Positions 43,326 to 61,255 of a DNA stretch of 64,000 nt are shown here, piece after piece (the stretch's first letter is position 1; each line of letters opens with the position of its first letter). Both the position numbers and the translations under genes were made by a program. The notes below the pieces were generated by a model, which worked only from the letters and a program-made list of their open reading frames with translations, made no database searches and had not been told where the DNA came from. The DNA is taken from NCBI RefSeq assembly GCF_030246885.1, contig NZ_CP126739.1, forward strand, positions 3,504,985-3,568,984, written 5' to 3'. Origin of the DNA: Microbacterium sp. zg-B185. GTDB lineage: Bacteria > Actinomycetota > Actinomycetes > Actinomycetales > Microbacteriaceae.

Positions 43326-43414
43326 GGTCTCGATACGCCCGCTTCGCGGGCTACTGGACCTTGAGTCGCAGTCACATCAACGCCGCTTCGCGGCGTTGAT
43401 CCGCCTCGACTCAA
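43326..43414. repeat. Palindromic element and nested hairpins between ssb and rpsR
   Basis: Bases 43326-43360 are a copy of the 34-36 bp palindromic repeat family found at 59.5-60.5 kb (TCTCGATACGCCCGC, TTC loop, GCGGGCTACT). Next to it 43376-43386 and 43390-43400 form an 11-base perfect stem with a TTC loop, bracketed by TTGAGTCG (43361-43368) and CGACTCAA (43407-43414), the latter overlapping the ssb stop. This lies inside a ribosomal protein operon. Confidence 0.8.
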
Positions 43415-48001: not shown

Positions 48002-48074
48002 GTATCGAGCCTAGAGCCGAGGCGGATCAATGCGTGCCCCAGCACGCGTTGATGCGCCTCCGGCTCTGGATCGA

Positions 48075-48100
48075 GTCTCGATACGCTCGCGCTACTCGAC
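48075..48100. repeat. Shortened palindromic element
   Basis: GTCTCGATACGCTCGCGCTACTCGAC keeps the outer arms of the 59.5-60.5 kb repeat family but has a short central stem. It lies between the methyltransferase stop and the CCA gene start. Confidence 0.65.
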
Positions 48101-48116
48101 GTGCGCGAGCGCGCCG

Positions 48117-57431: not shown

Positions 57432-58381
57432 CCGGTCTCGCCGAGCTCTTCGAGGATCCGGTTCAGGTCCTGAATGCTAGCGAAATCGATGCTGATCTGG
57501 CCTTTTCGTGCGCCGAGATTGATCTTGACACGTGTGTTCAGTCGGTCGCCGAGGCGCTCGGCGAGCTCGTCGAGATGCGCGCGACGCGCACCCGGCTGAG
57601 GTTTCGAGGGGCGCTGGCGGGCAGCATCCGGTGCCTTCGAGGCGGCCTCGGCGGCCCGCACCGAGAGGTCCTCGTTCACGATCTTGTCGGCCAGCCACTG
57701 CATCGTGTCGGCATCCTCGAGCGAAAGGATCGCCCGGGCGTGCCCGGCCGTGAGCACGCCGGCCGCGACACGCTGCTGGACGGGCACGGGCAGCTTCAGC
57801 AGCCGGATGGTGTTGCTGATCTGCGGGCGCGACCGGCCGATGCGGCTTGCCAGCTCTTCCTGCGTGATACCGAAATCCGCCAGCAGCTGCTGGTATGCAG
57901 ATGCCTCCTCGAGCGGGTTCAGCTCGGAGCGGTGGAGGTTCTCCAGCAGCGCGTCACGGAGCAGGTGCTCGTCGGCGGTGTCGCGGATGACCGCGGGGAT
58001 CGAGGTGAGCCCGGCCTCGCGCGCAGCACGGGTGCGCCGTTCCCCCATGATGAGCTCGTACGTGCCGTCGCCGACGTCGCGGACCACGACCGGCTGCAGG
58101 ACACCGAACTCGCGGACGCTGTGCACGAGTTCCGCCAGATCGTCCGCGTCGAAGTGGATCCGGGGCTGACGCGGGTTCGGGACGATCGCGTGCGGGTCGA
58201 TCTCGGCGAGCCGGGCGCCCGGGACCTCCAGGAGCTCCTCGTCGGCAGAGGCTTCGGGCGCCTCGGCGGTCGCGACCGGAGCGCCGGGGAAGAACACGTC
58301 GACGGGACGCGCCTCCGACGAGGCCTCACTGGTGGGGATCAGCGCGCCGATCCCCCTGCCCAAGCCGGTTCTCTTCGCCAT
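57416..58381 (-). CDS. parB: Chromosome partitioning protein ParB
   Basis: A 321-residue CTP-dependent clamp. N-terminal ParA-contact segment (KRTGLGRGIGALIP), CTPase domain with GERRTRAAREAGL and ENLHRSELNPLEEA, helix-turn-helix (QEELASRIGRSRPQISNTIRLLKLP) and a C-terminal dimer domain. It loads at parS and spreads on flanking DNA. Its ATG overlaps the parA stop by one base (TGATG). The parS array lies just beyond parA. Confidence 0.95.
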   Translation of the reverse strand: MAKRTGLGRGIGALIPTSEASSEARPVDVFFPGAPVATAEAPEASADEELLEVPGARLAEIDPHAIVPNPRQPRIHFDADDLAELVHSVREFGVLQPVVVRDVGDGTYELIMGERRTRAAREAGLTSIPAVIRDTADEHLLRDALLENLHRSELNPLEEASAYQQLLADFGITQEELASRIGRSRPQISNTIRLLKLPVPVQQRVAAGVLTAGHARAILSLEDADTMQWLADKIVNEDLSVRAAEAASKAPDAARQRPSKPQPGARRAHLDELAERLGDRLNTRVKINLGARKGQISIDFASIQDLNRILEELGETGYSSR

Positions 58382-59349
58382 CAGGAGTCCCCTTCATTTC
58401 CGGGCGCGCTGGCGTTCCCGGGGTCTTTCGCGGTGGCATCCGGACCGTCGCGGCGGATGATCTCGACGGCAGCCTCGCGGTACGCGACGGCGCCGGCAGA
58501 ATGCCCATCGTAGGCGATGACCGTCTGCCCGAAACTGGGCGCTTCGGACACGCGCACCGACCGCGGGATCACGGTTGCCAGCACCTCATCGGGAAAGTGC
58601 TGACGGACCTCCTCGGCGACCTGCTGCGCGAGCCGCGTTCGCCCGTCGTACATCGTGAGCAGGATCGTGGAGAGGCGCAGTCCGGGGTTCAAGTGCTTCT
58701 GGATCATCCTCACCGTCCCCAGAAGCTGACTGAGGCCCTCGAGCGCGTAATACTCGCACTGAATCGGGATCAGCAGTTCGTGAGCGGCGGCGAATGCGTT
58801 GATCGTGAGCAGACCCAATGACGGGGGGCAGTCGATCAGCACGAAGTCGAGCCGGTCAGTCGTGTGCGCCAGATATTCGTCGAGCGCGGTGCGCAGTCGG
58901 TGCTCGCGGGCGACCTGCGAGACCAGCTCGATCTCAGCGCCGGCCAGGTGGATCGTGCTCGGAGCGCACAGCAGATTCGGCGACTCAGGGCTGGTCTGGA
59001 TGATGTCGGCGAGCGGAAAGTCATCGATCAGCACGTCGTAGATGCTCGGGATCTCCGCGGTGTGCGGAACTCCCAGGGCTGTGGAGGCGTTCCCCTGCGG
59101 GTCCAGGTCGATCACGAGCACTCTGGCACCCACCGAGGCCAGGGATGCCGCGATATTGACGGTCGTCGTCGTCTTGCCGACGCCGCCCTTCTGGTTCGAG
59201 ACGGTGATCACACGGGTGTGACCACTCAGCTTCACGTCGACGGCTTCGAGTGAGCGGCGTCGGGCGGTCAGGTCGGCCAGTTCACGGGCGATGGGACTGT
59301 CGTCGAGCGAGAAAGACGCCGCAGATTCGGCGTTCTCGGGTTGTTTCAC
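58381..59349 (-). CDS. parA: Chromosome partitioning ATPase ParA
   Basis: A 322-residue deviant Walker ATPase with SNQKGGVGKTT (54-61), VIDLDPQGNAST and FVLIDCPPSLGLLT. I place the start at GTG 59349 because AGGGAGGG ends 8 bases before it and the next upstream GTG at 59358 touches that site. The start codon and the following codons (GTGAAA) are part of a perfect parS site, so ParB binding should interfere with parA expression. Confidence 0.93.
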   Translation of the reverse strand: MKQPENAESAASFSLDDSPIARELADLTARRRSLEAVDVKLSGHTRVITVSNQKGGVGKTTTTVNIAASLASVGARVLVIDLDPQGNASTALGVPHTAEIPSIYDVLIDDFPLADIIQTSPESPNLLCAPSTIHLAGAEIELVSQVAREHRLRTALDEYLAHTTDRLDFVLIDCPPSLGLLTINAFAAAHELLIPIQCEYYALEGLSQLLGTVRMIQKHLNPGLRLSTILLTMYDGRTRLAQQVAEEVRQHFPDEVLATVIPRSVRVSEAPSFGQTVIAYDGHSAGAVAYREAAVEIIRRDGPDATAKDPGNASAPGNEGDS

Positions 59350-59357
59350 GTGAAACA
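59342..59357. promoter_or_regulatory. parS site 1 (perfect), on the parA start
   Basis: TGTTTCACGTGAAACA, the full 16-base consensus. It spans the spacer between the parA ribosome binding site and its GTG, and the start codon itself. Confidence 0.95.
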
Positions 59358-59515
59358 CCCTCCCTTTGGCGCGCCGACGGACATCGATCTCTACTCTAGT
59401 CGCGGCCTGGCTCCCCACTCGCCGCCGCGCCCGTCCGAGCGCTCCTTGACCCTCCTCGACGTCGTGTATGCGGCGGAGGGCACCGTATTGAGACCAGCCG
59501 CCAGCCCCCGGTGGC

Positions 59516-59531
59516 CGTTTCACGTGAAACA
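59516..59531. promoter_or_regulatory. parS site 2
   Basis: CGTTTCACGTGAAACA, 15 of 16 consensus bases with the 14-base core intact. Confidence 0.95.
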
Positions 59532-59544
59532 TCCCACTCCCGGT

Positions 59545-59579
59545 GGTCGAGTAGGCGGCGCAGCCGCCGTGTCGAGACC
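59545..59579 (+). repeat. Palindromic element R2
   Basis: 35 bases opening GGTCGAGTAGGCGGC and ending GTCGAGACC, with GGCGGC/GCCGCC as inner stem. It lies 13 bases after parS site 2. Confidence 0.85.
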
Positions 59580-59594
59580 AGCCACCCCGGTGGC

Positions 59595-59610
59595 CGTTTC
59601 ACGTCAAACA
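59595..59610. promoter_or_regulatory. parS-like site 3 (one core mismatch)
   Basis: CGTTTCACGTCAAACA; G to C at the first base of the right GAAAC arm. Binding may be weak. Confidence 0.7.
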
Positions 59611-59623
59611 TCCGGACTTCGGT

Positions 59624-59658
59624 CGTCGAGTAGGCGGCGCACCCGCCGGATCGAGACC
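59624..59658 (+). repeat. Palindromic element R3
   Basis: CGTCGAGTAGGCGGC then ACCCGCCGGATCGAGACC; inner stem GGCGG/CCGCC. It lies 13 bases after parS-like site 3, the same spacing as R2 from site 2. Confidence 0.85.
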
Positions 59659-59680
59659 ACGCGCGTTGTACGCTCCGCAG

Positions 59681-59714
59681 GATCTCGATACGCCCGCTTC
59701 GCGGGCTACTCGAT
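59681..59714 (-). repeat. Palindromic element R4, opposite orientation
   Basis: GATCTCGATACGCCCGC, TTC loop, GCGGGCTACTCGAT. Same element read from the other strand, with a CCCGC/GCGGG inner stem. Confidence 0.88.
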
Positions 59715-59746
59715 CGCCGGTTCCCCGGTGGAATACACGGCACACG

Positions 59747-59762
59747 TGTTTCACGTGAAACA
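59747..59762. promoter_or_regulatory. parS site 4 (perfect)
   Basis: TGTTTCACGTGAAACA, full consensus. Confidence 0.95.
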
Positions 59763-59775
59763 CGCGGACTTCGGT

Positions 59776-59811
59776 GGTCGAGTAGGCGGCGGAAGCCGCC
59801 GTACCGAGACC
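59776..59811 (+). repeat. Palindromic element R5
   Basis: GGTCGAGTAGGCGGC, GGAA loop region, GCCGCCGTACCGAGACC. It lies 13 bases after parS site 4, and a degraded opposite copy (59835-59868) follows. Confidence 0.85.
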
Positions 59812-59931
59812 CCACGCAATGCACGGCCCCGTGAGATCGTGATGCAGCGGATTCGCGCGCTACTCGATCACCGGTCCCCGACGGCCGAGTAGGCAGCTAT
59901 GCCCCTCTTAAGGTCCAAGCCCCAACGGATC

Positions 59932-59947
59932 CGTTTCACGTGAAACA
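59932..59947. promoter_or_regulatory. parS site 5
   Basis: CGTTTCACGTGAAACA, core intact. It lies 12 bases beyond the 3' end of the GIY-YIG gene. Confidence 0.95.
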
Positions 59948-59959
59948 TCCGACCGCCAG

Positions 59960-60253
59960 CTACACGCCGCGCTCACGCGGCGGCTTTCGACTCAGCCGGT
60001 TCAGCTTCTCGACCTCGCCTTTCACGAGAGCCAGTCGTTTCGCCCTACCCCACCCTTGTACCTGCTTTTCGCGGTGGAATGCATCCGCTATGCGGTCGAA
60101 GTGTTCGTAGTAGAGCAGACGTACCGGTCGGCGTGTTCGGGTGTACTCGGCTCCCTCTCCTCCCTGGTGCTGAGCCAGACGACGATCAAGATCCCATGTG
60201 CTGCCGACGTAGAGAGCACGGTCTCGGCACTCGAGGATGTACATGAAGGGCAT
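59960..60253 (-). CDS. GIY-YIG nuclease family protein (UPF0213-like)
   Basis: A 97-residue single-domain protein ([52 protein letters not shown]...[17 protein letters not shown]). YILEC and LYVGST are the GIY-YIG strands, with the catalytic Arg (DLDRRLAQH) and the Glu expected in [10 protein letters not shown]. Family members nick or cut structured DNA; many are uncharacterised. ATG 60253 or 60244 could start it. It is the only gene inside the parS/palindrome array and has repeat copies on both sides. Confidence 0.85.
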
Positions 60254-60344
60254 GATCGATGATGCCCTGGCCGTGTGCGAGGAATGGAACACGGTGCAGG
60301 TACGACGCCAACATCGCGCAGCGTGACGCATGTGGAGGAGGGGG

Positions 60345-60378
60345 GATCTCGATATGCCCGCTCCGCGGGCTACCCGAT
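60345..60378 (-). repeat. Palindromic element R8
   Basis: GATCTCGATATGCCCGC, TCC loop, GCGGGCTACCCGAT; two changes from R4 outside the stem. Confidence 0.82.
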
Positions 60379-60452
60379 CACCGGAAACGCGGCCCCGCGC
60401 ACCGAATACCGCCCCTTTGAGGGCTACGGATCACCGCAGAGTGGCACCCGGC

Positions 60453-60487
60453 GGTCGAGTAGGCGGCAACGCCGCCGTATCGAGACC
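60453..60487 (+). repeat. Palindromic element R10
   Basis: GGTCGAGTAGGCGGC, AAC loop, GCCGCCGTATCGAGACC. Full outer and inner stems. Confidence 0.88.
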
Positions 60488-60509
60488 ACAGCACCGCCGA
60501 AAGCAGGGG

Positions 60510-60543
60510 GATCTCGATACGCCCGCTGCGCCGGTTACTCGAT
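60510..60543 (-). repeat. Palindromic element R11
   Basis: GATCTCGATACGCCCGC, TGC, GCCGGTTACTCGAT; opposite to R10, forming a head-to-head pair like R3/R4. Confidence 0.8.
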
Positions 60544-60589
60544 CACCGCGAACGCAAGTCCCGCCGGCTGCCCGACAACTCCGAGCCTA

Positions 60590-60605
60590 TGTTTCACGTG
60601 AAACG
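60590..60605. promoter_or_regulatory. parS site 6
   Basis: TGTTTCACGTGAAACG, 15 of 16 bases, core intact, 5 bases beyond the rsmG stop. Confidence 0.95.
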
Positions 60606-60609
60606 TGGG

Positions 60610-61236
60610 TCAGCCGCGAACGGTGGCGCGAACGACTCGGGTCGGCTCGTCGAGCAGACCCTGGCCGAGGACCTCGAGCCGGACATCGTTCACACGATAC
60701 TTCCGCAGCTGCTTGTCCGCGGTCTCGATCTCGGTCGACGCGTTGGCGCCTTTCAGCAGGATCAACTCGCCGCCGTCTCGGACGAGCGGCGCGGTCAGCG
60801 GCACCAGAGTGCGCAGTGCACTCACGGCGCGTGCCGTCGCGGCATCCAGAACCGGCCCCCGGCTCCAGTCCTCGGCGCGTGCGCGCAGGACCTCGACGTT
60901 GTCCAGCCGCAGGGCTGCGACCTGCTCATTCAGCCAGGTGACGCGGCGCTCCATCGGTTCGATGAGGATCCACTCCACGTCCGGTCGCGCGATGGCCAGC
61001 ACCAGTCCCGGCAGTCCCGCGCCCGAGCCGACGTCGCCTACGCGCCCGGAGAAGAGAGGTGCTGCCACTGCGCTGTTCAGGATGTGCCTGCTCCACAGCC
61101 GGGGTGGCTCCAGCGGGCCGATCAGCCCGCGCTCCTCGCCGTGCTCGGCCAGAGCCCGGGTGAATTCCCGGGCCAGATCGATTCGGTTGCCGAAGATCTC
61201 GGCCGCGACCGGTGGTTCCGCCTCGACGTCGCTCAT
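60610..61236 (-). CDS. rsmG: 16S rRNA 7-methylguanosine methyltransferase RsmG
   Basis: A 208-residue class I methyltransferase that makes m7G527 in 16S rRNA. It has RHILNSAVAAPLFSGRVGDVGSGAGLPGLVLAIARPDVEWILIEPMERRVTWLNEQ, with the SAM loop GSGAGLPG. ATG 61236 lies 19 bases after the khpB stop, and that gap is filled by a parS-like site, so a normal ribosome binding site is missing. Confidence 0.94.
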   Translation of the reverse strand: MSDVEAEPPVAAEIFGNRIDLAREFTRALAEHGEERGLIGPLEPPRLWSRHILNSAVAAPLFSGRVGDVGSGAGLPGLVLAIARPDVEWILIEPMERRVTWLNEQVAALRLDNVEVLRARAEDWSRGPVLDAATARAVSALRTLVPLTAPLVRDGGELILLKGANASTEIETADKQLRKYRVNDVRLEVLGQGLLDEPTRVVRATVRG

Positions 61237-61239
61237 CAG

Positions 61240-61255
61240 TGTTTCACGTGGAACA
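61240..61255. promoter_or_regulatory. parS-like site 7 between khpB and rsmG
   Basis: TGTTTCACGTGGAACA, one mismatch in the core. It fills the 19-base gap between khpB and rsmG where the rsmG ribosome binding site would be. Confidence 0.75.

Follow-up and report, generated by a model that had tools for sequence, protein, structure and literature searches.

A lone gene for a GIY-YIG endonuclease was found inside an array of short palindromic repeats, in a 64,000-nucleotide stretch of the genome of Microbacterium sp. zg-B185 (contig NZ_CP126739.1, positions 3,504,985 to 3,568,984; hereafter the window). The array is made up of eight copies, plus more degraded ones, of a 35-bp imperfect palindrome and of six parS-like sites, all located around the gene, and together with the gene it occupies the parA-rsmG interval, at the end of a 3.57-Mb genome assembled as one contig. 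The same GAG/CGA core is found in palindromes around relatives of the gene in several phyla, the remainder of the palindrome depends on the protein clade, and two outer base pairs of the element covary. Since the gene is contained within the array and the palindromes of its relatives share the core, the surrounding palindromes are likely the cognate sites recognised by the nuclease, which would cut them once folded into hairpins in single-stranded DNA; on balance this is held to be the probable explanation.

Palindromes of the kind present in the window, called A-type elements, were searched with the fuzzy pattern GGTCGAGTA-N8..26-TATCGAGACC, allowing up to 2 mismatches per arm. Thirteen matches were detected in the 64-kb window, while five mononucleotide-shuffled windows gave 0-2 matches each per 64 kb. 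Eight of the thirteen have at most 3 mismatches in total and are packed into 1.1 kb, at 59460-60544. Five of these are on the forward strand, namely a degraded element with 3 mismatches (59460..59495), three elements of the GGTC/GACC subtype (59545..59579, 59776..59811 and, with one end base changed, 59624..59658) and one with perfect arms (60453..60487). The other three, on the reverse strand, are of the GATC/GATC subtype (59681..59715, 60345..60379 and 60510..60544). A degraded element at 59831..59880 (reverse strand, 64% to the reference copy, repeat family D1), the truncated 5' half of an element at 59877..59903 (forward strand, repeat family D6) and a strongly degraded element identified by eye at 60402..60435 (reverse strand) bring the array to ten or eleven copies. 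An initial reading of the sequence alone (hereafter the sequence-only reading) had described about ten copies, seven of them clear, in two orientations, together with six ParB-type sites and a lone GIY-YIG gene; all of these features were recovered, both orientations being present in the array. The association of orientation with subtype, forward copies having mostly GGTC/GACC ends and reverse array copies GATC/GATC ends, was absent from that description.

The gene (59960..60253, reverse strand) codes for 97 amino acids and matches PF01541 with E=3.9e-16. Its start was placed at 60253 by alignment with homologues, and not at 60331, to which the open reading frame (ORF) can be extended. The gene is intact and has all the residues invariant in a 22-member family alignment, where Tyr, Arg, His and Glu columns are conserved in all 22 rows; the catalytic residues of GIY-YIG enzymes are among these columns. 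The AlphaFold model of the protein (mean pLDDT 90.7) resembles UPF0213 proteins and Slx1, and its nearest solved relatives are likewise UPF0213 proteins and the branched-DNA nuclease Slx1. The product is predicted to be a GIY-YIG endonuclease of the Slx1/UPF0213 class, with a single domain. One other GIY-YIG match exists in the genome, inside a long open frame of 956 amino acids which, judging by size, is UvrC.

More distant homologues also turned out to lie in arrays, with other arms, and for this reason 40 further places of the genus were added to the earlier ones. The resulting set contains 70 loci, the window locus included, and omits one weaker match (G091) and several gene fragments. All trinucleotide pairs bounded by a 4-bp stem in the vicinity of the genes were counted, apart from fully complementary ones, a procedure that avoids the choice of a motif by eye. 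The GAG/CGA pair ranked first, with 381 matches in 69 of the 70 loci over 72,730 bases, and the second-ranked core had 78 matches. Farther from the gene, GAG/CGA dropped to 52 matches in 32 loci over 68,029 bases. In the per-locus scan, the locus devoid of such a hairpin was L068, where the gene is broken. The common layout is an outer stem, GAG, a stem or loop, CGA and the other side of the outer stem.

The same count was performed on the best-scoring 80 of at least 577 relatives found in one collection scan, referred to as named loci, two of which duplicate genus loci. They span Actinobacteria, Bacteroidetes, Cyanobacteria, Chloroflexi and others, and GAG/CGA again ranked first, with 428 matches in 78 of the 80 loci near the gene and 40 matches in 24 loci far from it, despite 1.8 times more sequence. 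In 73 of the 80, at least two hairpins that do not overlap lie within 700 bases. The elements are also oriented relative to the gene: the nearest upstream element is in the + orientation in 48 of 63 genus loci and 49 of 69 named loci, and the nearest downstream one in the - orientation in 48 of 62 and 46 of 68, respectively. Median distance from the gene match, in the genus loci, is 92 bases upstream and 45.5 downstream. In a number of loci from Bacteroidetes and Cyanobacteria (L123, L130, L151, L122, L134 and others) the core is built around very short loops (CGNAGY, GCTCT), so that the whole element measures about 20 bases.

Covariation was evaluated on 127 A-type elements found by pattern at 14 places with A-type arrays, the window included; matches with more than 3 mismatches and two weak matches of the window were left out. 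Their ends are most often GATC/GATC (48), GGTC/GACC (38) or GGTT/AACC (18). Among the 106 unique elements, outer pair 2 is of Watson-Crick type in 100 (shuffle mean 51.5, maximum 66) and outer pair 4 in 102 (shuffle mean 74.7, maximum 86); pairs 1 and 3 are nearly invariant and thus uninformative. The inner stem has a mean length of 3.87 bp, compared to 2.73 bp when halves are swapped between elements (maximum of 300 swaps, 3.11). Directly upstream of the palindrome a conserved flank is found, mostly CGGT, CGCT or CGCC, with CG at positions -4/-3 in 117 of the 127 elements, which may be part of the recognised site.

Repeats of the genus loci were divided into four types, A to D, and compared with a tree of 66 of the 70 proteins, the sequences of L059, L068, L076 and L077 being dropped as broken or short. 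The tree contains 14 rows of type A, 29 of type B, 5 of type C and 17 of type D, plus one odd row (L035) which was relabelled by hand. The four types and the odd row require 4 changes on the tree, which is the minimum, against a mean of 32 after shuffling; with the odd row under its rule label 4 changes are needed (least possible 3), and 3 when it is removed. Type D corresponds to one well-supported side of a branch (98/99), and type C to one side with less support (84/89). Certain residues of the proteins vary with the clade, being mostly REKQ with types A and D, WEKR...GWSH with type B and WERR...GWSR with type C. Moreover, in all nine genomes having two typed paralogues in the set of loci, these sit in arrays of different types. 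The parts of the hairpin outside the core therefore change with the protein clade, and this co-segregation lends good support to the suggestion of the sequence-only reading that the repeats may be binding or cutting sites of the enzyme. A nuclease that reads these hairpins would be consistent with the clade-matched types, with the covariation and with the way the nearest elements are oriented.

The distribution of repeats was then evaluated in 149 genomes of the genus, 62 of which contain the nuclease protein and 18 the strict A pattern. Strict A copies are present in 17 of the 19 genomes that have an A-type gene, whole or as a fragment, vs 1 of the 130 without, the fragments of G074 and G110 being labelled A because they lie beside A copies. 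The single genome with strict A copies and neither gene nor fragment is G003; G018 and G068 have the gene and no strict A copy. B copies occur in 30 of 30 genomes with a B-type gene vs 47 of 119 without (median 45.5 vs 0), and D copies in 17 of 17 with a D-type gene vs 71 of 132 without (median 90 vs 1). Presence of the own type is partly circular, because types are taken from the array and the array itself is counted; the B and D medians, though, far exceed the size of an array. The interpretation made from the sequence alone, which is partly supported, was not refuted by the test set out with it: the gene does sit among repeats, and the repeats are not equally abundant where it is missing.

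Several results weigh against recognition of the hairpins by the nuclease. Hairpin scans select for pairing, and pairing inside scanned elements is therefore not evidence; for the hairpin, admissible evidence comes from the core ranking, the contrast between near and far sequences and the covariation in the A-type elements found by pattern only. When folded with DNA nearest-neighbour energies, no more than 63 of 247 genus elements and 82 of 215 elements of the named loci retain the 4-bp outer stem, and the opposite strand retains it almost as often (49 and 72, respectively). Of four window elements that were folded, two prefer a rival TCGA/TCGA pairing, and the full proposed core is predicted in none. 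The type of each locus was given by a rule applied to its array, in some loci on the strength of one or two copies, and types A and B are not single clean clades, each requiring 2 changes on the tree. At least 10 B copies are found in 21 genomes without a B-type gene, and at least 10 D copies in 27 without a D-type gene. Finally, a draw of 198 genomes across the phylum gave matches in 20, including the window's own, and the remaining matches were distant: 26 loci of such distant members contain 0-2 GAG/CGA hairpins each, none in 19 of them, and the hairpins are convincing at most in L270, L274 and L284. A general presence of such repeats at UPF0213-like genes was accordingly rejected, and the core rule is taken to mark one subfamily rather than all UPF0213-like proteins.

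The idea that repeats vanish in the absence of the gene was also discarded. Any GIY-YIG domain was searched in 23 genomes, 21 of them repeat-rich and without a match, the others being G003 and G041; matches were found solely in long frames (at least 277 amino acids, most over 590), except for one sub-threshold fragment of 144 amino acids in G033. Many B- or D-rich genomes hence have only UvrC-sized or other long GIY-YIG frames, and the repeats can outlive the gene.

The same data were used to weigh other explanations. The repeats might form a REP-like mobile system with the GIY-YIG enzyme in the role of the transposase, nicking hairpins mainly to copy them; that the nuclease may drive the spread of the repeats had also been suggested in the sequence-only reading. 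Such selfish spread would explain copy numbers exceeding the array size in genomes with B- and D-type genes, the regular tandem units of the arrays, and the presence of B, C and D genes at many places, a flanking ORF being common to 254 of 2415 locus pairs, mostly among parA-rsmG loci. It is a possibility, and a doubtful one: the GIY-YIG domain hydrolyses DNA and is not known to have a joining step, the 14 intact type A genes of the genus draw occupy one syntenic site, the window's genome has merely five strict A copies, two of them in the array, and many copies are found in genomes which lack the gene, which speaks against a strong form of this explanation. A classical REP/RAYT system, in which a tyrosine transposase owns the repeats and the GIY-YIG gene is a bystander, would agree with palindromes of REP size in alternating pairs. 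It is scarcely credible, as repeat type follows the GIY-YIG tree and PF01797 is found in 1 of the 149 genomes (G041), which is not the window's; a RAYT transposase was consequently rejected as owner of the repeats. The palindromes could also be RNA hairpins or terminators, accumulating around a small and weakly selected gene whose product does not touch them. Their closeness to the gene ends speaks for this explanation, which is nonetheless unlikely, as it accounts neither for a repeat type following the protein clade, nor for a core shared across phyla, nor for elements on both strands.

Gene and array might alternatively work with parS and ParB in chromosome segregation. Scanning with a 14-mer at up to 1 mismatch located the six parS-like sites at 59343..59356, 59517..59530, 59596..59609 (1 mismatch), 59748..59761, 59933..59946 and 60591..60604, and a seventh, with 1 mismatch, outside the repeat interval at 61241..61254. 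Each of the 14 intact A-type loci contains between 4 and 13 parS-like sites and shares one or more flanking ORFs with the window locus. Six B-type loci with parS-like sites, which form one clade (L053, L055, L057, L058, L062, L064), are also at the parA-rsmG place that is taken by A-type genes elsewhere in the genus, which might mean that the site was reused or that one type replaced the other. On the other hand, parS-like sites are absent from 47 of the 70 genus loci, including all C and D loci, and they are present without the gene. In 30 genomes (20 without a match, 10 with the gene elsewhere) rsmG was located, and the parA-rsmG gap was readable in 23: all 23 contain parS-like sites, 2-12 each. 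Hairpins are missing in 17 of these gaps and number 1-4 in four, where those printed look random; the other two belong to a D-rich genome (G088, 8 hairpins, D-type among them) and a B-rich one (G099, 6 hairpins, B-type among them). The 16 readable gaps with the gene contain 1-14 hairpins, with a median of 5. Since parS is kept and hairpins are mostly missing without the gene, the hairpins accompany the gene, and the parS cluster is native to the origin region that hosts gene and array; parS was rejected as a general part of the repeat unit, as the cluster exists without gene or hairpins, and a role of the array in segregation is very unlikely. Within the window, at 59506-59659, a 75-nucleotide unit comprising one parS-like site and one element is present twice with 85% identity, so that parS copies can multiply together with an element.

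If the nuclease does recognise the palindromes, the GAG/CGA core would act as a general recognition feature, while outer stem and loop would confer clade specificity. The core may correspond to a tandem pair of G.A mismatches, with a G-C pair closing it. Folding predicts the GAG-containing strand to be the more stable of the two in 185 of the 247 elements of the genus and in 165 of the 215 from the named loci. Cutting would be specific to single strands, as may be exposed on the lagging strand, in incoming DNA or in an extruded cruciform. Repair or copying at cut sites could make the local array grow, and copies might occasionally be seeded elsewhere and outlast the gene.

Single-strand cutting is suggested by analogy with Ssn, site-specific single-stranded GIY-YIG nucleases associated with the NTS repeats of Neisseria, reportedly described in 2025 by Chenal, Veyrier and colleagues in Nature Communications; such enzymes are taken here to cut single strands at cognate repeats. 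Ssn systems reportedly feature a lone GIY-YIG domain, cognate repeated palindromes around the gene and many homologues with differing cognate sequences. The present protein is similarly single-domain, with invariant Tyr, Arg, His and Glu, and its gene is associated with a repeat type of its own, the putative substrate. The GAG/CGA core is not known to be part of the NTS/dRS3 sequence.

REP/BIME elements with RAYT enzymes are 20-40 bp imperfect palindromes in alternating pairs, with the enzyme gene flanked by its own repeats (PMC2817692, PMC3116915, PMC3733652). Short palindromes in both orientations near an enzyme gene are found here too, but the enzyme is a GIY-YIG nuclease, and 148 of the 149 genomes have no PF01797 match. 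CGTC-tagged REPs, one of two large classes in a 2013 survey, include Neisseria dRS3 and have an 8-9 bp stem with an unpaired CGTC tag; no dedicated transposase is reported for them in that survey, which leaves the class without an enzyme (Di Nocera 2013, PMC3733652). A-type elements are likewise short palindromes, but differ from the repeats outlined there in having an internal GAG/CGA core in place of an unpaired tag: CGTC is directly upstream of 1 of the 127 elements, and in 5 of the 127 the element itself opens with CGTC, a variant of GGTC. Bacterial Slx1-like UPF0213 proteins (PDB 1zg2, 1ywl; PMC1564403), and Slx1 itself, resemble the present protein in sequence and fold; distant phylum members of this kind differ in being mostly without hairpins. 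Among the matches listed by literature searches, none linked GIY-YIG proteins to palindromic or REP, REPIN, RAYT, Ssn, NTS or Neisseria repeats, and none described the shared GAG/CGA core or the D-type motif. The present repeats are a further class, for which the description of a partner enzyme was not found in the literature searched.

Bacterial genomes commonly contain short palindromic repeats. Whether those described here represent a large superfamily of interspersed palindromes, extending from Actinobacteria to Bacteroidetes, Cyanobacteria and Chloroflexi and defined by a GAG...CGA tandem G.A core rather than by a tag, is an evenly balanced question; in such a superfamily one GIY-YIG subfamily would read the core universally, and outer stem and loop as a clade address, nuclease and repeats coevolving as lock and key. 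If the palindromes are indeed cognate sites of the nuclease, a widespread class of bacterial repeats would gain a dedicated enzyme, and the rule of a core plus clade-specific outer stem and loop could predict cognate sites from sequence alone for many nucleases, given at least 577 relatives. It could also supply single-strand cutters of chosen specificity. The question of what maintains bacterial palindromic repeats becomes directly testable.

The array is flanked by a parA ORF (58381..59532 as the longest ORF, reverse strand; Pfam AAA_31/CbiA), whose true start is probably internal, and by rsmG (gidB; 60610..61236, reverse strand; Pfam GidB, 5.3e-44). Two isolated A-type copies are found in the window outside the array, both on the reverse strand, at 43326..43360 (1 mismatch) and, in a short form, at 48074..48101 (2 mismatches). 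Of the five strict A copies in the genome, three are grouped in a 22-kb segment (G000:C1:2364536-2386365, L001-L003) some 1.2 Mb away from the gene. An A-like locus with parS-like sites was also found in a record titled Stenotrophomonas maltophilia P13 (L175), possibly a contamination of that assembly. In D-type loci (L033, L065, L072 and others), the D repeat seems by eye to extend into the nuclease gene at its 3' end, and the predicted proteins have repeated, DASTSSATQ-like C-terminal tails.

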